In this document: piece after piece, positions 1 to 18,211 of the stretch
Layout: each line of letters opens with the position of its first letter
Position numbering within the stretch: position 1 is the first letter of the stretch
Origin: a virus
DNA length: 23,725 nucleotides
Strand: one strand, 5' to 3'
IMG/VR virus record: IMGVR_UViG_3300009071_000074
Location: 1-23,725 of that record
Program-made: the position numbers and the translations under genes
Notes under the pieces: generated by a model
What the model saw: the letters and a program-made list of their open reading frames with translations, nothing else
The model's database searches: none
Told to the model about the DNA's origin: nothing

Positions 1-338
1 GTGTTGGCTGTTAGTTCTCCGATGGATTTTTTAAATGTTACATTCTCGCCGATACTAGCTTGAGATGTTTCTAGGACTCTCTGCAACATTCTCTTTTCTT
101 CAGAATTTACGCCTTCTAGGGATGCCAGTCCTCTTTGCATTTCTTCTATTTGTTTTTTAGTAGCTTTGAATTCTGATAATGAAGTGCCCTGTTGTGCTTC
201 AAATATTTTGGCAATTTCATCTAGACCTTGTCTAGCACCAGAAGAAACCAACTGTTCATTTGCGATTCTTATTACACTTGCCAATTCCTGCTGGTTTTGA
301 CGTTGTAGTTGATCTGTTACTCCTGCTAGACTTGCCAT
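1..338 (-). CDS. Probable tail tape measure protein, N-terminal fragment (runs off left edge)
   Basis: The reading frame is open from an ATG at 338 to the left edge, giving 112 residues with no stop. The start follows directly on the stop codon of the EF-hand gene (TAA then ATG), so the two are translationally coupled. The visible part is polar and helical, rich in Q, E, K and A (for example QLQRQNQQELASVIRIANEQ), and looks like coiled coil; no membrane segment or enzyme motif is visible. I infer tape measure from position: in tailed phages the tape measure gene normally follows the tail assembly chaperone, and here the frameshifting gp26-like chaperone lies just upstream. T4 gp29 would be the counterpart. 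The identity is not proven by sequence, because the diagnostic hydrophobic and repeat regions lie outside the window. It could be another coiled-coil virion protein. Confidence 0.6.
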   Translation of the reverse strand, partial: MASLAGVTDQLQRQNQQELASVIRIANEQLVSSGARQGLDEIAKIFEAQQGTSLSEFKATKKQIEEMQRGLASLEGVNSEEKRMLQRVLETSQASIGENVTFKKSIGELTAN

Positions 339-680
339 TTACTTTTTACCCATTACTTCTTTCGCATAGAATGCTGCGACTATTGCAGCAACCGACACAA
401 AATATGTTGGGGCCATATCTCCCAGAATTGAGCTTGCCTTGATAAGTCCTATTAATTCTGCAATAACTACTGCAAAAGGGTATAATAACATACCAAAAAG
501 AGCGAACCATGCCATGTGTCTTTGGGCGTCTTGTTTCTTATCTTCATTTTCCACGTTCGATTTCATGTCGGCCAATTCTATCATTTGTTTTTCCATTGCC
601 ATTTCCTCATCACTAACTATGCCATCATGGTCTCTATCTAGGTAGGCATATTTGGAGTCTTTTTCTAGTTGTTTTTCCAT
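339..680 (-). CDS. Small membrane protein with one EF-hand loop
   Basis: A 113-residue protein. Residues 15-26 (DRDHDGIVSDEE) form a canonical EF-hand calcium loop, with D15, D17, D19, S23 and E26 at the ligand positions and G20 at the turn. A charged helical stretch follows (about 27-55), then two likely membrane helices at about 58-80 and 90-107, and a short basic tail ending KEVMGKK. There is no signal peptide. A clear ribosome site (AAAGGA on the minus strand, 690-695) sits 9 bases before the start and overlaps the stop of the upstream -1-frame extension. The gene lies between the tail chaperone and the probable tape measure. I do not recognise a specific family. A membrane-docking, holin-like or calcium-responsive virion role is speculation; the calcium loop and the two hydrophobic helices are what the sequence shows. 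Confidence 0.85.
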   Translation of the reverse strand: MEKQLEKDSKYAYLDRDHDGIVSDEEMAMEKQMIELADMKSNVENEDKKQDAQRHMAWFALFGMLLYPFAVVIAELIGLIKASSILGDMAPTYFVSVAAIVAAFYAKEVMGKK

Positions 681-689
681 TGAAATTTT

Positions 690-695
690 TCCTTT
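690..695 (-). promoter_or_regulatory. Ribosome binding site for the EF-hand gene
   Basis: The minus strand reads AAAGGA 9 bases before the ATG at 680. It overlaps the TAA at 694-696 that ends the frameshift extension, so termination there places ribosomes on the next start. Confidence 0.6.
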
Positions 696-1586
696 ACTGT
701 TGATTTTGTCTGGCGTTTTCTTCTTTTATATAATCCATCAATAATGTAAGGTATATTTCGCGTTCCCACGGAATCATGTTTTCCAATTCTGTCAAACTAT
801 ATTTATGATGATGCATTAATGCAAAATTGTTTCTATATAGAGATACCAAAGATTCATGATTCAAAGTTAGAGAAAAAAATCGGTGATCCCCGCCACCCTC
901 ATATCTTTCTCAAATCCGCATTTATTGCATTTAATTTTACAAATCGCGGCAGCTTCAGGCATATTTTCAAAAAAATCATTTATTTTTCCAAACTGTTCTT
1001 GTGTCAAATTTTCTATAAAATCTTTTACTTCACTTATAGGGTGATCGGTTGTATTAAAAATGTCCTCGTCTTGATATATCATATCAATACATGTAGCAAT
1101 GACACTCACTATATCTTCGTATGTGTCTGTCTGTGATAACATTCGCATAGTGCTAAAATTTGGATATTTCATTATGATGCCAATATTATCTGTCAAACTG
1201 ATTTTATTATAATTTTCTTGAGACTCAAATTCCACAACCACATCGTCTAAGTTAAGATGAAATGGTATTTTTTCTTCTTTTGATTCTCCACCAACATTAC
1301 ATACATGATTATAATTTAATTCGACAATATTGCTTATAGATTTTGATCGAAGATTTACAAAAATATACTCTATATCGAATGTCGCTAATCTTTCAACATC
1401 AATATCTTGAATTATACAATTTCTTATCACTTGTTTGATAGATTCGATTTTTTCGTCTGTGTCGTCCCCCTGTTGTGCCATCAGAAGAATTTTTTCTTCT
1501 TTTATCAAGAATGGTCGAAATCTTACTTTCTGTTTTGTTGATGGTATTTCTAATTCATAAGTTGGGGTGTCAATTCTTGGTAACAT
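694..1586 (-). CDS. Predicted -1 frameshift product of the gp26-like gene (297 aa tail assembly chaperone, long form)
   Basis: This product shares residues 1-238 with the gp26-like protein, then shifts to the -1 frame on a run of seven T (minus strand, 879-873) and continues for 59 codons to the TAA at 694-696. The tail begins SLTLNHESLV and contains ENMIPWEREIYLTLLMDYIK. That helical segment, with its proline-tryptophan-glutamate-arginine core, resembles the C-terminal T domain of phage tail assembly chaperones. The -1 frame is open from the slip site onward, which chance would rarely give over 59 AT-rich codons. The only ATG inside it (816, a 40-residue frame starting MHHHKYS) has no Shine-Dalgarno sequence, which favours frameshifting over independent initiation. 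Role inferred: the long form would bind the tape measure and recruit tube subunits, as lambda gpGT does. Frameshifting has not been measured. Confidence 0.7.
867..1586 (-). CDS. gp26: gp26-like baseplate hub / tail assembly chaperone, zero-frame form
   Basis: A 239-residue protein close in length to T4 gp26 (208 aa) and to the T4-type baseplate protein family that contains it. It opens MLPRIDTPTYELEIPSTKQK, typical of these proteins. The C-terminus has a zinc-ribbon-like C216-x3-C220-x2-C223-G pattern followed by a short GITDFFL end. An earlier site, where relatives often carry a second Cys pair, keeps only C96 (NHVCNVGG), so the metal site may be partly degenerate. The family acts in hub or tail assembly. 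Position before the probable tape measure supports a chaperone role equivalent to lambda gpG. The gene ends with a slippery T7 run just before its stop. The start has only a weak ribosome site (GGAA) and follows a 42-base gap after the tube-fold gene. Confidence 0.75.
   Translation of the reverse strand: MLPRIDTPTYELEIPSTKQKVRFRPFLIKEEKILLMAQQGDDTDEKIESIKQVIRNCIIQDIDVERLATFDIEYIFVNLRSKSISNIVELNYNHVCNVGGESKEEKIPFHLNLDDVVVEFESQENYNKISLTDNIGIIMKYPNFSTMRMLSQTDTYEDIVSVIATCIDMIYQDEDIFNTTDHPISEVKDFIENLTQEQFGKINDFFENMPEAAAICKIKCNKCGFEKDMRVAGITDFFL
873..879 (-). promoter_or_regulatory. Slippery heptamer for -1 ribosomal frameshifting
   Basis: On the minus strand the gp26-like gene ends GAT TTT TTT CTC TAA. 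The seven T form an X XXY YYZ heptamer in exactly the right phase, so both tRNAs can re-pair after a one-base backward slip. The zero-frame stop comes one codon later. G-rich sequence (GAGGGTGGCGGGG) lies 9-21 bases upstream and could act as an internal Shine-Dalgarno stimulator. I see no convincing downstream pseudoknot. Confidence 0.7.
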
Positions 1587-1628
1587 TATTTTTCCATTTC
1601 ATTTCAATTCGTATATTTAGTAGTATTA

Positions 1629-2288
1629 TTAAAATCCGGATGCAGAAAGAGCTCTTTTTATATCCGCAGCAGATCTGCCCTGAGATTCTACTGTATTTCT
1701 AAGATTTTCTTGAGATTTTCTTTTTTTTCTGCCGCCGCCGGCTTCTGTGTATGATGATTTTGAGATATATTTTCTATATGTCATTGATATGTCGCATGTT
1801 GCTGGCTCTTCGTTTGAGTAAGACATACTGACTTCGCCAACAGATAGAGGATATGACTCTTCAAATACATATGTATTTGTAACTTTGTTTGTTTCATCCA
1901 TTACCATTAGTTGCATATCACTAGCAGAATAATCTTTGTAATATCTAATTCTGTGTGTATCGTAATCAATTACATAATGCATCCAATCTTCAAAATATTG
2001 TCTTTCTCTAAAGTCATCGCTAAGATATACACTAAAAGAAAGTTGGTCATATGTGATTTGATATGGTGCTAATCTTACTGGTCCATATATTTTGGTTTCT
2101 GATGTTGCAATAGATTTGCTAGGCAAACTTACAGTCGAGACTCTGTATCTTAGTTGCTCAGCGCCGCCGTTGTTTGCAAAATTTCCTAAAGCCGAAATGC
2201 TGGGCGCAGTAATCAGTAGTTCGTATCTATTGCCACGACTCAATCCGCCTTCTTTTATATTTGCAATAAATCTATCCATATTTCCCAT
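1629..2288 (-). CDS. Tail-tube-fold protein of the gp19/gp54 family
   Basis: A 219-residue protein whose first ~165 residues look like the T4 gp19 tail-tube fold: an early RGNRYELLITAPS strand, PSKSIATSETKIYGP, the DDFRERQYFEDWMHYVID segment, and late strands around LSVGEVSMSYSNE. T4 gp19 has 163 residues, so this protein carries an extra ~50-residue C-terminal tail that is Gly-rich and basic (GGGRKKRKSQ) and ends in a small helix. Tube-fold proteins with extensions include the tube initiator gp54. Position next to gp26, gp4 and the divergent gp48 suggests an initiator or baseplate-proximal tube protein, but the main tube subunit cannot be excluded. It begins immediately after the stop of the gp2-like gene, with a good AAGGA ribosome site 7-8 bases before the ATG. 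Confidence 0.75.
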   Translation of the reverse strand: MGNMDRFIANIKEGGLSRGNRYELLITAPSISALGNFANNGGAEQLRYRVSTVSLPSKSIATSETKIYGPVRLAPYQITYDQLSFSVYLSDDFRERQYFEDWMHYVIDYDTHRIRYYKDYSASDMQLMVMDETNKVTNTYVFEESYPLSVGEVSMSYSNEEPATCDISMTYRKYISKSSYTEAGGGRKKRKSQENLRNTVESQGRSAADIKRALSASGF

Positions 2289-3364: not shown

Positions 3365-4507
3365 ATGTTTAATTTGCCATTTGGGAATTTTAATATATCT
3401 CAGGTCACCAATACGTTTGACGATAATAATATTGCTATACCAGATATACCAAATCTTTCTATACCGGATATACCAGATATATCAGAAATCACACCTCAAC
3501 TTATTCTTGAGAGATCGGGTATACCTGTCACAACGGAAAGTCTTGAGGCACAGGCAAAGTTATTGGAAGGCGCCACTCAAGAGAAATTGCAAGAAGCTCT
3601 TGCAAATGCTGATGCGGTCGGAAGGGCCCGCGCATCAATCGAAAAAGCAGCAAATGATGCAGCTGGGGTAATCTCTCAACAAGTAACAAGAACTGGTGGA
3701 CCTAATACAGTACAGGCTAGTGACATGGAAAGGCCTTTCGCTGGGGCATATCCTGGCGATACGGGATCTGATAATGTTCGTGATTATATCATATTTACTG
3801 CTTATTCAAATGACGTTGCAGGATATACAAAGATGGAAACTGTAGGTTCGCAATCGCAGGGTGGAGAACCAGAAGGAACTGTCCAGTTATATATCCCAGA
3901 AAGTCTTACAGTAAATTCTCAGGTAGGATATAGAAATACAGACGGTGGAAGTATTGCGGGTACGATAGGGAATCTAGGAAGTGATGGAGATGATAATAAT
4001 ATGGATGTACTTACAAATCTTGCTTCGCAGATTATCGGTCAAACTGGTCAACAATTGGGTGATACTGGCGGGGTTCTTGCCCAGACACAGGGCCTTGGTG
4101 TTGGTGCTGCAAATCGAACTGTTTTATTTGAGGGAGTAGAGTTTAGGACTTTTAGTTATGCATATGAATTTTTGCCCAAATCTTGGGAAGAATCTGATAT
4201 GTTGAGAAAAATAATTAAATTTTTTAGGATCCAGATGTTACCCGAAATTAGAGGAAATGGAAATACTTTCAAAACGCCCAATTGGTTTAGTATAGAATAT
4301 ATGATTGATGGAAAACCTACTGAATATCTCAATAAGATAAAACCATCGGTATGTACGGGTTGTGATGTATCATATGGTGGCAATGGACAGTTTGCAATGT
4401 TTCAAAGTGACAGGGGTGAGGCCCCTGCTCCAGCACTAATAAATCTCACATTAACATTCCAAGAAGTACAAGTCGTATCCACACGCGATGCTGCAGAAGG
4501 ATATTAA
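3365..4507 (+). CDS. gp48: gp48 baseplate tail tube cap
   Basis: A 380-residue protein close to T4 gp48 (364 aa). The N-terminus is a low-complexity stretch with repeated IPDIP motifs (residues 25-40), then a helical region (about 50-105) and a Gly-rich middle. The C-terminal third holds the tube-cap pattern: TFSYAYEFLPKSWEESDML, a helix IIKFFRIQMLPEI, NWFSIEYMIDG, and final strands LINLTLTFQEVQVVS. gp48 caps the hub and primes polymerisation of the inner tube. The start has an AGGAG site 9 bases upstream and lies downstream of an exact late promoter. It opens the rightward operon and ends two bases before gp53. Confidence 0.88.
   Translation: MFNLPFGNFNISQVTNTFDDNNIAIPDIPNLSIPDIPDISEITPQLILERSGIPVTTESLEAQAKLLEGATQEKLQEALANADAVGRARASIEKAANDAAGVISQQVTRTGGPNTVQASDMERPFAGAYPGDTGSDNVRDYIIFTAYSNDVAGYTKMETVGSQSQGGEPEGTVQLYIPESLTVNSQVGYRNTDGGSIAGTIGNLGSDGDDNNMDVLTNLASQIIGQTGQQLGDTGGVLAQTQGLGVGAANRTVLFEGVEFRTFSYAYEFLPKSWEESDMLRKIIKFFRIQMLPEIRGNGNTFKTPNWFSIEYMIDGKPTEYLNKIKPSVCTGCDVSYGGNGQFAMFQSDRGEAPAPALINLTLTFQEVQVVSTRDAAEGY
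3437..3484 (+). repeat. IPDIP microrepeat in the gp48 N-terminus
   Basis: Two near-identical 15-base units (ataccagatatacca and ataccggatatacca) encode IPDIP, followed by a third partial unit. The result is a short extended proline-spaced segment before the helical region. Confidence 0.7.
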
Positions 4508-4509
4508 AA

Positions 4510-5790
4510 ATGTTTAATAAAATTTCAAATATTAAATATGATATAAAACTCGATAATCGTCCAGTAGAATCTAAAAATATTTTTAGATTTGCATATATTT
4601 TAGATTCTTACAAAGATGATCCCAAAAATTATTTGGTACATACTATAGAATCTGATCAGACAGTAGAAAGCATATCTGCACAATATTATGGCGATGCGAA
4701 ATATAGTTGGGTTATTTTGATGTACAATAACTTGTTAGACGTTTATGAAGAATTACCTAAGACGGAATCTATGTTTTATGAATATATCTCTAAAAAATAC
4801 ACTCCAAAAAATGTTTTAGAACTAAAACGTATGTTACCAGCGCCTTTGTTGCCCAAAAATGGAAACACTTCATTTGGAAATTATAATGGTCAGATTGTTT
4901 ATGACGAAAGTATTGATAGAGGCGTCAAATGGGATAGTATAACTCAAAATTGGTCTCCATTACCTGAACTTGGGGTGCCAACTCCTAGCTCTGCCGAATT
5001 TAATATATCATGTAATAATTGGAATAATCCTGAAGAATCTAATCATTTTTTAATTAATGGCCTTACAGATCCAGAACTTGTGTTATTTCGAGGTGGTACA
5101 TATAAATTTAAAATAAATTTTTCTCCTTATGATACTTTTTATTTAACTACCGATGATGGAAAAAATTATTGGAATCCGAATCGTTTTTATGGTCTATATG
5201 ACAATGGAATATCTGAAAAAGATTTTTTTGGATCTTCCCACATAACTTTCAAAGTTCCTGATGATGCTCCAGATTTATTATATTACTCATCTGATATGAC
5301 CCGACCTTTTGATGAAAATAACAATAGAAATATGTCTAATATGATAAGAATTATAAATCTTGAAGATGTTCCATATGTTAGTCAGAGCGATAGAAATTCG
5401 TTACAAAATCTAAATGGCCGAGTGATGGGCAAAGTAGTAAAAATTGAAGATAATTTTTATGTTTGGAATGGAATATATACAGAGCCAAATCAAACTAACT
5501 TTCTCGAGGGTTGGAATTTACTAAATCCGCAATCGTCCTCTGAGTATACAATAGAATTAGGATTGTTGGTTGCAATGCAGACCCCACACAAATTTACTCA
5601 TAAAATAGAAGGCTATAAAATAACATCAGATACATATTCTGCGTTGCCGGCAGAAGAAAAAAATTCGTATATTATGCAGTCTAAGTATGCATATGAAGAA
5701 GAGAAAAACGAAAAAAATAGAACTATAAGAATTATGAAAAAAGATCTTTTGGGTAAATTTTTAGAAAATTGGGAAAGGATTGTTGCATAA
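4510..5790 (+). CDS. gp53: gp53 baseplate wedge protein with inserted cupredoxin-like domain
   Basis: A 426-residue protein, more than twice T4 gp53 (196 aa). Residues 1-100 carry the gp53 core: VHTIESDQTVESISAQYYG, the WVILMYNNLLDVYEELP pattern, and ISKKYTP. The last ~50 residues (EEEKNEKNRTIRIMKKDLLG to the end) match the usual C-terminal helix. Between them lies an insert of about 280 residues. Residues ~163-285 look like a cupredoxin fold of the type common in marine phage proteins: ELVLFRGGTYKFKINFSPYD, then FKVPDDAPDLLYYSSDM, then NMIRIINL. The usual copper ligands are absent: the His site reads P206-Y207 and the Cys/His loop reads Y259-S260-S261-D262. The gene starts two bases after gp48, with AAGGA 8 bases upstream inside gp48. 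It acts in the wedge, next to gp48 and gp25. Confidence 0.88.
   Translation: MFNKISNIKYDIKLDNRPVESKNIFRFAYILDSYKDDPKNYLVHTIESDQTVESISAQYYGDAKYSWVILMYNNLLDVYEELPKTESMFYEYISKKYTPKNVLELKRMLPAPLLPKNGNTSFGNYNGQIVYDESIDRGVKWDSITQNWSPLPELGVPTPSSAEFNISCNNWNNPEESNHFLINGLTDPELVLFRGGTYKFKINFSPYDTFYLTTDDGKNYWNPNRFYGLYDNGISEKDFFGSSHITFKVPDDAPDLLYYSSDMTRPFDENNNRNMSNMIRIINLEDVPYVSQSDRNSLQNLNGRVMGKVVKIEDNFYVWNGIYTEPNQTNFLEGWNLLNPQSSSEYTIELGLLVAMQTPHKFTHKIEGYKITSDTYSALPAEEKNSYIMQSKYAYEEEKNEKNRTIRIMKKDLLGKFLENWERIVA
5774..5779 (+). promoter_or_regulatory. Ribosome binding site fixing the gp27 start
   Basis: AAAGGA lies 10 bases before the ATG at 5790. An in-frame TTG at 5769 would place this site inside the coding region, so the ATG, which shares its A with the gp53 stop codon, is the better start. 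Confidence 0.65.
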
Positions 5791-11938: not shown

Positions 11939-14900
11939 ATGAATAAAACTAATATTTCAAATATTGCAAACCATGTAAAAAGTCAGCTTCCATCTTATAT
12001 TTCTTCTGATGAAGATTATTCTAGGTTTGTAAAATTTTTAGAATTGTATTATGAGTGGATGTCTCAGTCAGATAATCCGTCCGGTGTCACCGGCGATATG
12101 ACTGAATATGCCGACATTGATGATACACTAGAAATGTTTGTTTCTTTATACAAGAACGAGTTGGCTTCATCTTTTCCAAATGTTGTAAAAATAAAAGGAA
12201 TAGAAGAAAAAAACTCTGAAAATGTGAACGCAAACCAATTAGGAAAAACCGCTGAGTCTGCTACAGAAAGTTTGTATGACCAAGAATTTTTAATGGATGG
12301 AATTGCAACATCTTTCAAACTTAATTATTTTAATCCTTTTTATTATTTTGGCGAAACTGATGCGACATCTGTTGTTGATGAAATTGTGGTGTTTAAAAAT
12401 CCAGCGACTTCAACTGATCGTGGAGATGGAGATACATTGCAATCTTATGTCGATAATCTGACTCCGCCAGCTGTAAGTCGTACAGGAACAACAGGTGATT
12501 ATGTAAAACTGGTCGAAAATACAGATTATGTTATAGAAGGAAATGTCATTAAATTTGTGGACTCTAGTGGAGATCCCGACACTTTGATTATAAATGATAT
12601 AGTAAAAATTAGATTTTATGTAAAAACATACTTGGATGTTTCAACGACACCGGACACAGAAGATGGTGTTAAAAGATTAGTTGAATCTACTGGCGTCAAA
12701 AAAACTACATATGAAAATCAAAGAAACTTTCTAAAATTTATGAAAGATTTTTATCAATCTAAGGGTACAGAAAAATCATATGATTTTTTATTCCGATCAA
12801 TTTTTAACGAACCCATAGAAATTTATTATCCAAAAGACAACCTATTTAAAGCCAGTAATAATATTTGGGAAAGTACTACATCAGTACGATCGATACCACA
12901 TGTCGTTACTTTAGAGAATCCAGAAATACAAAATCCATATAGAATAACAGGAAAAGTATCCGAAGCAACTGCTATTGTTGAATATTATAAAGACTTGAAA
13001 ATTGGCGATTATGATGTTAGAGAATATTTCATAACAAATATTTTTGGAACTTTTCAGAGCGAGGAAGATATTATAGTTTCTCAGACCAATGGAACTAAAT
13101 TCGAAGAAAAATTATATGAATGTGTTGTGGGGTTTGATATTACAAATGCGGGTACGGATTATTCCAGAAATCAACCAATTCACTATAATCTTTCTTCAGA
13201 AGGTAGTGGCCATGGATTTGCAGCCGAAATTGGTCATACAACCACCGGCAAAGTGGAAAGAATCGATATCGGATCTGGCGGAGATGGATACACAGATGGA
13301 GAACATATAGAATTTGTTGATGATGGGACATTGGGTTCAGGTGCATCAGGTATAGTAATAGATACAAGCGCCACCACTAGTAATTATAGTGTATTGTTTA
13401 ATCAGAATCCAGCATCTAGTGAATATATTGCAAATGGCCCACAGACTATATTTGATATAGGATTGTCTGGTGATGTTTATCACGATACCGCAAAAAACAC
13501 GGTGGTATCTATTGAAAATATTGATTCTATGTCAGATTCGGTTTTTGCTTTGTATGATTTTGAAAGTATTGATACTTCTATTATCACTGTTAAAGATAGT
13601 ACTCAATTTTCTGGTTTGATACCAGATCTGAAATCAAATTTGAATGGTATTAGAATAGAAACATCGCTTGTTTCTACTGTGTCGCCGCCGTATGCGGTAT
13701 CCAATATTGACCCCAGTGATGATTTGGATACTAGATATAAAAACGATTTAATTTTGAGCGTGTCAAGTGTGGATTCAAATGGATCTATCACTGGTATTTC
13801 TACTGAAAATTCATTATTTGGTTCGTCTTTCACGTCATTATCATCACCATCCGCCGGTAAAACTAGTTCTAATGCTCAAGTTCTTCCTTCTCCTGTTAAT
13901 TTAACCAACCAAACAGCTAGATATGAGTCTGGCAATGGTTTCGGTGGTAAATTTGATATATCAATAGAAAATAATTCGATATTAACTATTCTTTCTAGTA
14001 CATCTGGTTTGGGATTTCAATATTTAAAAAATGATGTATTAAAGATTGACGGAACTCAACTTGGTCTGAACGGATTATCTGACACGAATGATATTTTTAT
14101 AAAAATAGATTCTGTAACAGCTGGTAGTGATTATATGGCAATTAATCAAGAAGATCCTATTACTTCGACCGCTGGATATACCACCACATCTGTCAGTGGT
14201 ACGAATGCTAGTTGGAACGTCAATACGGGTATGAATTTGCCCAGCGGTTCGCCCATACCACTTTTTGTTAAATTGGCAGATTCTCCCTCTTCTGTAGGAT
14301 ATTCTGTAAATGATGTAATTATAATTCCTGGCGACTTATTAGGTGGATTTTCGCCTACAAATGACTTGACAATTATTGTAAATCAGGTCGATTCTATTGG
14401 AAGAATAGAAGAATTTTCTTTTAGTGGGGTTTCTTCGGTTGGACAAATAGCTTCGTTTAGTGTGATTGGTACTCCAATTATTCCCGATGTCAAAGATAGT
14501 CATTATAACCCTTCATTTACCCTAACACAGTTCGATACATCTCTTCCAGCAGGAACTGATGCGAAATTTTTTGTTGAGAGAAGTGGTGCAACGTATCAAG
14601 TTTTGTTGCCCAGTTTTTCTGATAGAGGTACTAATTATGTAGTTGGCGACTCAATACTTATTGATGGTGCCCAGCTGGGTGGCGTTAGTACTACAAATGA
14701 TCTAATTTTTGAAATTTCTTCTATTGACAGTAATGGTGGAGTCACAGGGATTTCTATTATATCCGGTACATCTAAAAATTCATTTTCTATCTCTGACATT
14801 TCAGCGGAATCTGTCAAAGGAATTGGCGCAGAATTTGATATTGTTATTACAAATGATGTCTATTCAGCAAGTGTTAGTTCTGGAAAAGGTGGCACTGGAT

Positions 14901-17900
14901 ATAATGTAGGGCAAGTTTTAACTATCAAAGGTTCTGTTTTAGCCCATCAGTGGGTTAAAAGTGGATTTACTGCAAAAATAAATCAGGTTGGTGAAAATGC
15001 ACTATTTACTGATTCTGGATATATGAGACTTTCCGATATCGGTGAAACATTTAGAAAAAATTCTACGGATGGTATTACTATTGATTTTTGGTATTTCCGA
15101 AAAGGCACTGAAATTAGTGGTACTTATGGAGGCGCATCTATATTTTCTATAAATGAATCTGTAGGTGGTACACAAAAAACATTTTTACAACAACTTCCAG
15201 ATGGTACTTTGGAATTTGGAAACGGGACTGTATCGCAGACTGGCTCAGCTCTTTCCTTTGGCGATTGGCATCACATTGCCGTATTTTTAGGCCCAACAGA
15301 ATCCAGAGTTTATGTTGATGGGCAAGACTATATCACAACAATCACCGATAATAGTTATTTTGATATTTCTGAATATGGAGAGTATACAGAAACAATCACT
15401 ATTGCCTCTGGTCAAGAAAATGGTATTTCTACGATAGTATATGATCCTAATAAAAATATAGAAATGTCGGTTGACTATACATCGGGCCCATCTGCCGGAA
15501 CACTTGTTTCTGTTACACCTACGACCAACTCTGCGGGTAATGTTATTTCCTGGCCAACATTGTCGATTGGAGACGTGGTCACTCTAACATATTCAAAACC
15601 AGTAAAGAATTTTTACTTGGGTGCTAGACAAAAAGTAGATTCTTCATATTCCATAGAAGATTATAATCATGCTTTCTTTGGAACTCTGAGATTTACAACT
15701 GGTCGCAGATATGAAGAAGTCTCTGGCCTCATTGAAGATACGGGTACTGATAATTCTATCTCTGGTGTTGGATTGAATCCAATATATGTAAATCCAATTC
15801 CTTCTGTTACTACTATTCGAAAATCTGAACCATTAAAGGTTACATTTAAAGTGACAGAGTCAAATAAATCTGCATTTTCTATGATGTTTGATATAAATGA
15901 AATCCCCACAATTACTAGAAGTGTAAACTCTACTGTTCCCTCTGGTGAAATAATAACAAATACTTCCGAATTAATTCAACCAGGCCAAACCGGCGCACAG
16001 TTTTCATTGACTCAGGCTTTAGATTCTGGTGGTAATGCTATAAGTGGAATGGGCAGTGGAATTGCATTTTCGCCAGATTTGGGAATAGATGAAGTAATAG
16101 AAATAAGTTATTTGAGCGTTCTTGAAGATGATGTAGAATATATTATTCGTAATGAAAATCATCCTGTGTCTGCTAATAAAATTTCTTTGCGAAAATCTGA
16201 CGAAAATGGCATATATTCTACCTATGCTCTACCGGACGGAAATTCTTTGCGAGTTTCTTGGTCGTCAAAACCAAGAGCTGCGGTTACTATTGTAAGTTTG
16301 TCTACTTTTGGAAATAATTATATGAAGAAACCATATGGTTATGTCAAGGAATATACTGGTATTTATAAGTCGATTGGTAAGGGTGCATGGTTCAAAGGAC
16401 ATGGCAAAGACATAGGTAAAATAGAAAGTTTTAAAATAAAAGGAAATGCACTTCAATCAGAACTGGAAGGGTTTGGAGTTGATTATACTACCCCACCAGT
16501 AATTGATCTAAGTTCCTTTGGTGATGGACAAGCGACAGCGACTGTATTGACAGGACCCCTTTGTGTGCGGCCTGGCGAGTTTTTAAACAAACAGGGATTT
16601 TTGTCGGATGACAATAGATTATATGATGGGTATTTGTGGCAGGAGTTTTCTTATGTTGTTAAAGTCGGAAGATATATTGACGAATGGAGAAAAATTGTTA
16701 AAAAAGTGATTCACCCTGCCGGATTAATGATGTTTGGAGAATATAGTATTTCTACTGCTGCAGAAGTCAGAAAAGGTGCTGGTATTGCATGGGCCCAACT
16801 TATATACGAGATTATTAAAAATGTCAACATGAAAGTTAAAAATATGGACGGTCTTGGTCGATGGGCATATGGAGAAACTAATGGCCAATGGTATCCGACT
16901 TCGACAAGACAGGACACAAATTATTTAAATTCTCATGGAAATATATTCACATATGACAATAGACAACTAAGTGTAAATTCTACAATAGATGGAATGTATA
17001 ATGGCGTAGGCGAAGGCGAAGTGTCTGACGATACCGCTGGATCTACAACAGTAGATAACGGATCTGGAAGATATGCTTTACTACAGGTTGATGGTACAAA
17101 CGCTTCTGGTGGATGGTGGCAAGTTAAAAAAATTGCATTAAATTTTAGAGAAGCATTTGGAAAAGACTATTCACACTATTACACTTCCGGGCTTATAGGA
17201 AATACTGTAACTATTTACGATATTTCTGATGAAGATATGATCTCTGATAATTGGATTAATACTCGACCTTGGGGAAAGTATGAAATAATTGGAGCTCTAA
17301 TTGATTCATCGGTTGGCGAAAGATATGTTGTATATGATGTCAAATTGATTTCAAGTTATTCTGCTGACATGCCCGAATGGGATAATGCAGTATTCGGTGG
17401 TCCGAATAGAGTAGAATTTAGATGGGATAATATATTTCGTGGAAATGTAGATAGAAATGCCAATAGTTGGATCGGTTCTATCGCAGATGGTGCAAATCCT
17501 CGCGATGAAAAAATGATTATAAATATTTCTGGAAGATTTAACAATAATAAAGAAGGCGATGTGCCGACTTTACATACGACTTGGAAATCTTTAGAAAGAT
17601 TTAAATTTTATTTTAGGGATACTTATCCTCGTAACGAATTGGTGCAACAAATGTTTAGTCCAGCTTCGGAAATGGTAGGTTCGCCTTATAATAACCATAG
17701 AAAATTGGTACAGGGAAATAATTTGACACATATAGCAGTTAGACATCCGGATTATAATATGTGGTATAATTTGCCAGTAGAAGAAAATGGAAATGAGGAA
17801 TGGATATCTACCACTGACGGAACAGATCATAAATGGAGAAATACTGTTATGTCAGATGTAGTTACTAAATCTGATAGAAAGTATAGGGCGGTTTTAGATT

Positions 17901-18211
17901 CTATTGTAAATATTTCTCCCGTTTATTTGATTATGTCGGAAGAAACCCCCCTATCAGGGACAAGAAAAAGAATGGGCCCAACAAATCTTTCAGTAGAAAG
18001 AGCTAAATTTAACGAAAAACTACAGTCGGGATCTGATTATAACATTAGTGTTTTGGATGAAAATACATTTGAAAAATTTATATCGCCGGGCACTATAAAT
18101 GACAAATCCAATTTCGCATCAGAATCTACATTGGTAAAATATACGACAGCAAATATACCATCAACTGTTGAAGAATTGAATCAAATTTTAGAAACTATGA
18201 CAATCGACTAA
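11939..18211 (+). CDS. gp7: gp7 baseplate wedge protein, enlarged, with repeats and LamG-like domain
   Basis: A 2090-residue protein, about twice T4 gp7 (1032 aa). The N-terminal wedge core shows FVKFLELYYEWMSQSDNP and, at about 262-300, FMKDFYQSKGTEKSYDFLFR followed by FNEPIEIYYPKDN. The core ends with WRKIVKKVIHPAGLMMFGEY (HPAG at about 1592). Inserted between are repeats of about 100 residues (about 660-1005) carrying VGDSILIDGAQLGG-like motifs, and a LamG/concanavalin-type domain (1021-1260) with GITIDFWYFRKG, DWHHIAVFLG, SRVYVDGQDY and FFGTLRFTTGRRY. A 70-residue segment appears nested inside the LamG part. Residues ~1604-2090 form a further, aromatic-rich region that I do not recognise. 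gp7 spans the wedge periphery, so the inserts probably face outward. The start is two bases after gp6. Confidence 0.85.
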   Translation: MNKTNISNIANHVKSQLPSYISSDEDYSRFVKFLELYYEWMSQSDNPSGVTGDMTEYADIDDTLEMFVSLYKNELASSFPNVVKIKGIEEKNSENVNANQLGKTAESATESLYDQEFLMDGIATSFKLNYFNPFYYFGETDATSVVDEIVVFKNPATSTDRGDGDTLQSYVDNLTPPAVSRTGTTGDYVKLVENTDYVIEGNVIKFVDSSGDPDTLIINDIVKIRFYVKTYLDVSTTPDTEDGVKRLVESTGVKKTTYENQRNFLKFMKDFYQSKGTEKSYDFLFRSIFNEPIEIYYPKDNLFKASNNIWESTTSVRSIPHVVTLENPEIQNPYRITGKVSEATAIVEYYKDLKIGDYDVREYFITNIFGTFQSEEDIIVSQTNGTKFEEKLYECVVGFDITNAGTDYSRNQPIHYNLSSEGSGHGFAAEIGHTTTGKVERIDIGSGGDGYTDGEHIEFVDDGTLGSGASGIVIDTSATTSNYSVLFNQNPASSEYIANGPQTIFDIGLSGDVYHDTAKNTVVSIENIDSMSDSVFALYDFESIDTSIITVKDSTQFSGLIPDLKSNLNGIRIETSLVSTVSPPYAVSNIDPSDDLDTRYKNDLILSVSSVDSNGSITGISTENSLFGSSFTSLSSPSAGKTSSNAQVLPSPVNLTNQTARYESGNGFGGKFDISIENNSILTILSSTSGLGFQYLKNDVLKIDGTQLGLNGLSDTNDIFIKIDSVTAGSDYMAINQEDPITSTAGYTTTSVSGTNASWNVNTGMNLPSGSPIPLFVKLADSPSSVGYSVNDVIIIPGDLLGGFSPTNDLTIIVNQVDSIGRIEEFSFSGVSSVGQIASFSVIGTPIIPDVKDSHYNPSFTLTQFDTSLPAGTDAKFFVERSGATYQVLLPSFSDRGTNYVVGDSILIDGAQLGGVSTTNDLIFEISSIDSNGGVTGISIISGTSKNSFSISDISAESVKGIGAEFDIVITNDVYSASVSSGKGGTGYNVGQVLTIKGSVLAHQWVKSGFTAKINQVGENALFTDSGYMRLSDIGETFRKNSTDGITIDFWYFRKGTEISGTYGGASIFSINESVGGTQKTFLQQLPDGTLEFGNGTVSQTGSALSFGDWHHIAVFLGPTESRVYVDGQDYITTITDNSYFDISEYGEYTETITIASGQENGISTIVYDPNKNIEMSVDYTSGPSAGTLVSVTPTTNSAGNVISWPTLSIGDVVTLTYSKPVKNFYLGARQKVDSSYSIEDYNHAFFGTLRFTTGRRYEEVSGLIEDTGTDNSISGVGLNPIYVNPIPSVTTIRKSEPLKVTFKVTESNKSAFSMMFDINEIPTITRSVNSTVPSGEIITNTSELIQPGQTGAQFSLTQALDSGGNAISGMGSGIAFSPDLGIDEVIEISYLSVLEDDVEYIIRNENHPVSANKISLRKSDENGIYSTYALPDGNSLRVSWSSKPRAAVTIVSLSTFGNNYMKKPYGYVKEYTGIYKSIGKGAWFKGHGKDIGKIESFKIKGNALQSELEGFGVDYTTPPVIDLSSFGDGQATATVLTGPLCVRPGEFLNKQGFLSDDNRLYDGYLWQEFSYVVKVGRYIDEWRKIVKKVIHPAGLMMFGEYSISTAAEVRKGAGIAWAQLIYEIIKNVNMKVKNMDGLGRWAYGETNGQWYPTSTRQDTNYLNSHGNIFTYDNRQLSVNSTIDGMYNGVGEGEVSDDTAGSTTVDNGSGRYALLQVDGTNASGGWWQVKKIALNFREAFGKDYSHYYTSGLIGNTVTIYDISDEDMISDNWINTRPWGKYEIIGALIDSSVGERYVVYDVKLISSYSADMPEWDNAVFGGPNRVEFRWDNIFRGNVDRNANSWIGSIADGANPRDEKMIINISGRFNNNKEGDVPTLHTTWKSLERFKFYFRDTYPRNELVQQMFSPASEMVGSPYNNHRKLVQGNNLTHIAVRHPDYNMWYNLPVEENGNEEWISTTDGTDHKWRNTVMSDVVTKSDRKYRAVLDSIVNISPVYLIMSEETPLSGTRKRMGPTNLSVERAKFNEKLQSGSDYNISVLDENTFEKFISPGTINDKSNFASESTLVKYTTANIPSTVEELNQILETMTID
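13915..14950 (+). repeat. Diverged tandem repeats of ~100 codons within gp7
   Basis: Four protein-level repeats are visible. Each has a glycine-started FDI-type strand, a Y-x-VGD/VND turn, an I-x-G-x-LGG or similar segment, NDL plus strands, and a VDS-x-G-x-I turn. The second-half motifs are KIDGTQLGLNG (about 14045), IIPGDLLGGFS (about 14320), LIDGAQLGGVS (about 14660) and TIKGSVLA (about 14920). A half unit (NDLILSVSSVDSNGSITGIS) sits near 13747. Confidence 0.6.

Follow-up and report, generated by a model that had tools for sequence, protein, structure and literature searches.

A probable −1 frameshift joining gp26- and gp51-like coding regions in a putative tail assembly chaperone gene of T4-type marine phages

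The window, by which we mean the whole 23.7-kb virus record that was analyzed (IMG/VR record IMGVR_UViG_3300009071_000074, positions 1 to 23,725), carries on its minus strand the tail genes and associated features collected in Table 1. The gp26-like protein matches PF12322 with a score of 193 bits against a cut-off of 24.5, and the match is full-length, spanning profile positions 2-218 of 219. Its gene lies between those for the tail tube protein and the tape measure protein, with one small gene intervening. The same order of tube, chaperone and tape measure genes is found in phage lambda. The tape measure gene is cut by the end of the window, and was extended by using L002, a viral contig whose gp26 sequence is identical to that of the window. 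Positions 3749-5716 of this contig encode 656 or more amino acids that match phrog_794, tail length tape measure, with an E value of 7e-8.

Table 1. Features of the chaperone locus and its neighbors in the window.
Feature	Position	Strand	Basis
Tail tube protein (gp19/gp54-like), upstream of gp26	1629..2288	−	phrog_45 E 3e-39
gp26-like gene, putative short chaperone form, 239 aa, T4_baseplate family	867..1586	−	PF12322 E 7e-57; phrog_150 E 2e-58; model pLDDT 93
SD-like element GGCGGGG, proposed stimulator, 8 nt before heptamer	888..894	−	anti-SD pairing −6.7 kcal/mol
Slippery heptamer T_TTT_TTT, in gp26 phase, one codon ahead of gp26 stop	873..879	−	sequence
TAA stop of short form, bypassed by the proposed shift	867..869	−	sequence
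Extension in −1 frame, 59 codons and stop; gp51 domain of predicted long form	694..873	−	phrog_634 E 2e-25
Predicted small membrane protein, contains DRDHDG motif; lies between gp51 and tape measure gene	339..680	−	ORF translation
Tail tape measure protein, N-terminus, cut by window end	3..338	−	via locus L002

The small membrane-type protein encoded between gp51 and the tape measure gene has no confident family assignment in profile searches. It bears LDRDHDGIVSDEE, an EF-hand-like calcium motif, and several relatives have DTNGDGKVS-type motifs downstream, in roughly the same place. Elsewhere in the window, the plus strand contains an ORF of 2090 codons at positions 11939-18211.

The gp26-like frame ends, on the minus strand, with GAT (881-879), TTT (878-876), TTT (875-873), CTC (872-870) and TAA (869-867). 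The run of seven T residues at 879-873 forms the heptamer T_TTT_TTT, which is of the X XXY YYZ type and is in phase with the zero frame. After a shift of one base backward, reading would continue with TCT CTA ACT TTG AAT CAT GAA and onward until a stop at 696-694, adding 59 sense codons (SLT followed by LNHESL...NQQ) and producing a fusion of 297 residues, ...ITDFF-SLTLNHESLVSLYRNNFALMHHHKYSLTELENMIPWEREIYLTLLMDYIKEENARQNQQ. An earlier sequence-only reading of this DNA had proposed that the T run joins the gp26-like frame to a 59-codon −1 extension, and had written the junction peptide as DFFSLTLNHE; both were read correctly. Its count of a single internal ATG in the extension must be revised, since three are in frame (FALMHHH, NMIPWE and LMDYI), while the companion statement stands that no such ATG follows an SD sequence, as judged by inspection. 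The sole start-like codon in frame near the head of the extension is a TTG at 864, likewise without an SD.

Profile matches assign the extension to gp51, the “baseplate hub assembly catalyst” (phrog_634, E 2.4e-25, residues 1-56 aligned to profile positions 60-115 of 121). A second match of the extension, with an E value of 3e-5, is to phrog_150, the gp26 family, at its C-terminal end; it follows that some members of that family hold both parts in one chain.

The arrangement was compared among viral contigs and named phages that contain a complete gp26 end. These comprise 164 loci, or 97 non-redundant sequences at 90% gp26 identity. In 93 of the 97, an in-phase T TTT TTC, T TTT TTT or T TTT TTA is followed by a gp51 domain in the −1 frame. 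Most relatives carry TTTTTTC, and hence six T residues, whereas the window has seven and some relatives have eight; the in-phase six-T site and the −1 frame, whose conservation the sequence-only reading had proposed to check in relatives, are both kept. The four sequences lacking the heptamer are L071, in which one T is missing, and three from Ackermannviridae-type phages. The extension is in the −1 frame in all aligned loci except L071, whose indel changes the frame; L108, which falls outside the set of 97, has no T run at all.

At the family level the arrangement is present in Kyanoviridae, and also in Straboviridae outside the T4 subgroup (KVP40-type Vibrio phages and Aeromonas phage 65). 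The set includes P-SSM2, S-PM2, S-SKS1, Pelagibacter phage HTVC008M, Methylophilales phage Melnitz, Sinorhizobium phage phiM7, Pseudomonas phage pf16, Stenotrophomonas phage Moby and Acidovorax phage ACP17. Ochrobactrum phage OC, Synechococcus phage DSL-LC03, ACG-2014e and Desulfovibrio phage 7757 were added later and have the same arrangement, as does Rhizobium phage RL38J1, with T TTT TTG. In P-SSM2 the predicted junction peptide is ...LQSFFRISMAHEDLESYYK.

The first Phe codon of the putative slip site is TTT in 93/93 relatives, compared with 706 TTT to 255 TTC elsewhere in the same genes. This bias corresponds to a log10 P of about −16 if the loci are treated as independent, an assumption that overstates its significance. 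In these alignments, codons and not only amino acids are therefore conserved at the site. The extension is also conserved as a protein family, and IPWERE-type cores are kept across very distant phages. The residue encoded by the fourth −1 codon is hydrophobic throughout (I, L or V in 92/93, F in one); we do not count this as evidence, since the gp26 stop largely forces xTA or xTG at this place.

Some loci depart from the common form. In L149 (2486-2530), zero-frame reading of gp26 continues beyond the slip site, so that gp26 and the extension overlap by several codons up to the gp26 stop, which is unusual in the family. Ackermannviridae-type gp26 ends (L161:2221-2300, L162, L167, L188-L202 and L207) keep a gp51-like −1 extension, ...GYSIFEIxESMPWHLDxLTE..., with ATT TTC ATT TAA or CTT TTC AAG TAA in place of the canonical heptamer. 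In Kuttervirus there is no start codon ahead of the conserved extension residues.

T4 itself provides a comparison in which the two products are encoded separately. T4 gp26 and T4 gp51 both match PF12322, and each other, and T4 gp51 by itself covers positions 13-280 of phrog_150 and matches phrog_634. In a joint alignment, T4-type gp51 crosses the slip point without a gap (...VFKLLVNPDEIFTFYQINH versus ...FFRISMAHEDLESYYKINF). Judged from these alignments, T4 gp51 is a paralogue of gp26 whose single ORF is co-linear with the predicted frameshift product. Because the alignment runs without a gap over the junction, T4 gene 51 can be regarded as a ready-made long form and gene 26 as the short form. 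T4 thus appears to have one gene for the short form and another for the long, on opposite strands and lacking a slip site, whereas phages of the window type appear to use one gene with a −1 extension reached by a slip. The same FF pair is also found in T4-type gp26, for which no slip is needed, encoded by TTC TTT in T4, Merlin and L174 and, by chance, as TTT TTT in the control L176. PMC3004832 counts T4 gp26 and gp51 among the hub assembly chaperones, gp51 being required yet absent from the particle.

That T4-type gp51 is an in-frame fusion invites a different reading, namely that the long form is not needed in window-type phages, and that the −1 frame and the T run are remnants of an ancestral fusion of this kind. 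We find this scarcely credible, given that the −1 frame is intact and is conserved at the protein level in very distant phages, with the IPWERE-type cores retained.

Two elements flanking the heptamer are candidate stimulators of a ribosomal slip. The first is an SD-like element, which in the family ends 6-7 nt ahead of the heptamer and has a mean pairing energy of about −7.2 kcal/mol, compared with −0.5 for background. Pairing of −5 kcal/mol or stronger occurs in 86% of relatives and in 5% of background positions. The observed value of −7.33 also exceeds in strength the −5.28 ± 0.13 obtained when synonymous codons are resampled, and the Glu codon within the element is GAG in 55 cases and GAA in 8, against 571 and 1489, respectively, elsewhere. 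The signal overlaps a conserved Gly codon and is weaker outside the lineages with Glu-Gly at this place (−5.55 versus −4.73 resampled). Control scans, which were also applied to folding, used T4 gp26, T4 gp51 and Kuttervirus gp26. Because T4-type gp26 controls, which have no slip, pair there as well (−4.5 to −7.2), we retain the SD-like element only as a proposed stimulator, a role that is plausible but unproven.

The second element is a hairpin of 11 bp, common to 35 cyanophage-type sequences and beginning 5 nt after the heptamer. Among these sequences, 96.9% of alignment cells are paired, and the covariation score is 0.106 versus 0.033 in shuffles. Covariation links the third, silent position of an Ala codon (T, A or G; Ser replaces Ala in two sequences) to the middle base of a Glu, Val or Ala codon in 33 of the 35. 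Folding of the region after the slip site in P-SSM2 gives a z score of −4.6. In locus L153 (1486-1535) and 34 loci like it, the 5′ arm of this hairpin contains the ATG annotated for gp51, which therefore would be hidden in RNA structure if it served as a start.

No stable hairpin is found directly after the slip site of the window, where 44 nt fold with −1.4 kcal/mol (z +1.2), and a scan of window positions 600-1700 against Rfam gave no match. Because RNAalifold detects no common structure over all 93 sequences, we treat the hairpin as lineage-specific and do not claim it for the window. For the window itself, the sequence supports the heptamer and a putative SD-like element and not a hairpin.

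This combination of signals resembles the frameshift cassette of Escherichia coli dnaX, which likewise has an upstream SD-like element and an in-phase heptamer, and whose downstream hairpin has a counterpart in the cyanophage-type members. The two differ in that the dnaX heptamer is A_AAA_AAG rather than T_TTT_TTY, and in that the dnaX shift shortens its product whereas the phage shift would lengthen it; moreover, the window is without a clear hairpin. A passage of the review PMC5009743 describes U_UUU_UUU as far less shift-prone than A_AAA_AAG in E. coli.

The same signals bear on the possibility that the slip occurs in transcription, with RNA polymerase deleting a T, or adding two, and normal translation of the altered message giving the fusion. 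Polymerase slippage on homopolymers is known, and the runs of seven T residues in the window and eight in some relatives might favor it. However, the heptamer retains its codon phase, and an SD-like element and a covarying hairpin are signals of a translational type. Most of the runs, moreover, consist of six T residues (TTTTTTC), compared with the nine A or T residues given for bacterial slippage in a passage of PMC5009743, and because of this shortness above all we consider transcriptional slippage highly improbable.

The main rival to a ribosomal frameshift is re-initiation, in which gp51 is a small gene in its own right, translated by coupling to gp26 termination, as public annotation assumes. 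The gp26 stop usually lies two bases ahead of the residue named as the gp51 start in public records, a distance that suits coupling; P-SSM2, S-PM2 and S-SKS1 are annotated with a separate gp51; and an ATG two bases past the stop is present in many cyanophages, 43 of the 93 relatives having it at that position. In the window, re-initiation would take place at the TTG at 864. In 40/93 relatives, however, there is no ATG, GTG or TTG within the first nine −1 codons, the usual position being occupied mostly by CTC, CTA, CTT, CTG or TTA, and the start-like codons of the remaining 53/93 have no SD upstream. Conservation extends to the H, E/D, L, Y, N and F residues that lie ahead of any start farther on. 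Where the ATG is present, it is buried in the 11-bp hairpin in 35 sequences, and the position as a whole alternates between Leu (48) and Met (43), as an internal hydrophobic residue would. Finally, re-initiation would not need the TTT TTY codons, nor would it account for the gapless match to T4 gp51. Re-initiation thus accounts for the ATG lineages only, and as a general explanation we judge it improbable.

We therefore favor, with a probability of roughly 0.9, the reading that at this locus a T4-type marine phage encodes its tail assembly chaperone in two forms, the long gp26-gp51 form being made by a minority −1 slip. From the slip site, the open −1 frame, the conservation of both and the co-linearity with T4 gp51, we infer that in window-type phages ribosomes at the T7 run very probably move back by one base. 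Most ribosomes would end at the gp26 stop and release the 239-residue short form, while a minority would slip on T_TTT_TTT, probably with help from the SD-like GCGGGG that lies 8 nt upstream, and read on in the gp51 frame to give the 297-residue long form. By analogy with lambda gpG and gpGT, the short form may coat the tape measure protein, whose gene lies just downstream, and the extra domain of the long form may recruit tail tube and hub components.

In lambda a short protein is lengthened by a −1 shift near its stop, as would happen in the window; the slip site of the window differs in being T_TTT_TTN. A passage of PMC5009743 states that the lambda chaperone binds the tape measure protein and that neither product is found in the mature virion. 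The sequence-only reading had likened the locus to this G/GT arrangement, and the comparison of relatives supports it: the heptamer and the −1 frame are conserved, often with no usable start, and further backing comes from the synteny of tube, gp26, gp51 and tape measure and from the natural in-frame long form in T4 gp51. Another parallel, in the slip site, is offered by the chaperone genes of Vandenendeviridae and Andersonviridae. As described in PMC12846349, these have a poly-T −1 site at the end of a short chaperone gene, with an extension that was likewise long annotated as a separate hypothetical gene; the motif there is GTTTTT, and the likeness noted here is one of arrangement.

Evidence for a relation to lambda-type chaperones in sequence or fold is at most suggestive. 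Neither lambda G nor another chaperone family appears among the profile matches of the window proteins, and a PDB sequence search with the gp26 profile returned nothing meaningful. Predicted models of T4-type gp51 and window gp26 are confident (pLDDT 90 and 93, respectively), and Foldseek searches with them find the same family in other phages, with no significant match to a solved structure in the PDB. The window gp26 model matches the HK97 tail assembly chaperone 2ob9 with a probability of 0.57, a TM score of 0.49 of the target and an E value of 1.4, values that are only suggestive, and no 2ob9-like match is found among the 50 listed for the gp51 model. Thus, the resemblance to T-domain chaperones that the sequence-only reading had in mind gains no confirmation from structure.

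Vladimirov, Gautam and Davidson (2022) reportedly identified the tail assembly chaperones of T4-like phages. The PRFect paper (PMC10885494) cites that work for T4-like phages that have a short chaperone gene together with a longer, fused one, and the Adele paper (PMC12846349) cites it for poly-T slip sequences in the chaperone genes of T4-like phages. Because of these reports the phenomenon is of a known kind, and the earlier suggestion that such use in a T4-type gene is not well described does not hold. New details may lie in how widely the cassette occurs, in its SD-like element and in its covarying hairpin.

With the exception of the T4 subgroup and Ackermannviridae, phages of the T4 type, among them the cyanophages that abound in the ocean, are likely to share this dnaX-like cassette. 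Its parts are an SD-like element, an in-phase T_TTT_TTN and, for many members, a covarying hairpin in which the annotated gp51 ATG is buried. What hundreds of public records list as a “gp51 gene” would then be the −1 tail of gp26, with the T4 lineage using two genes and no slip. The gp51 domain has no annotated feature in many cyanophage records, such as KJ019094 (L209), KU686196 and HQ634191, and is labelled as a separate gene in others. If this proposal is true, many marine phages of the T4 type, in which gp51 is either annotated separately or missed, would have their gene models corrected. It would also tie gp26 and gp51, which are essential in T4 and have long been called hub factors of unclear function, to a general mechanism of tape measure chaperones. 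Furthermore, the occurrence of one slipping gene in some phages and two paralogous genes in others would serve as a clean natural experiment for studying how phages fix the proportions of two protein forms.
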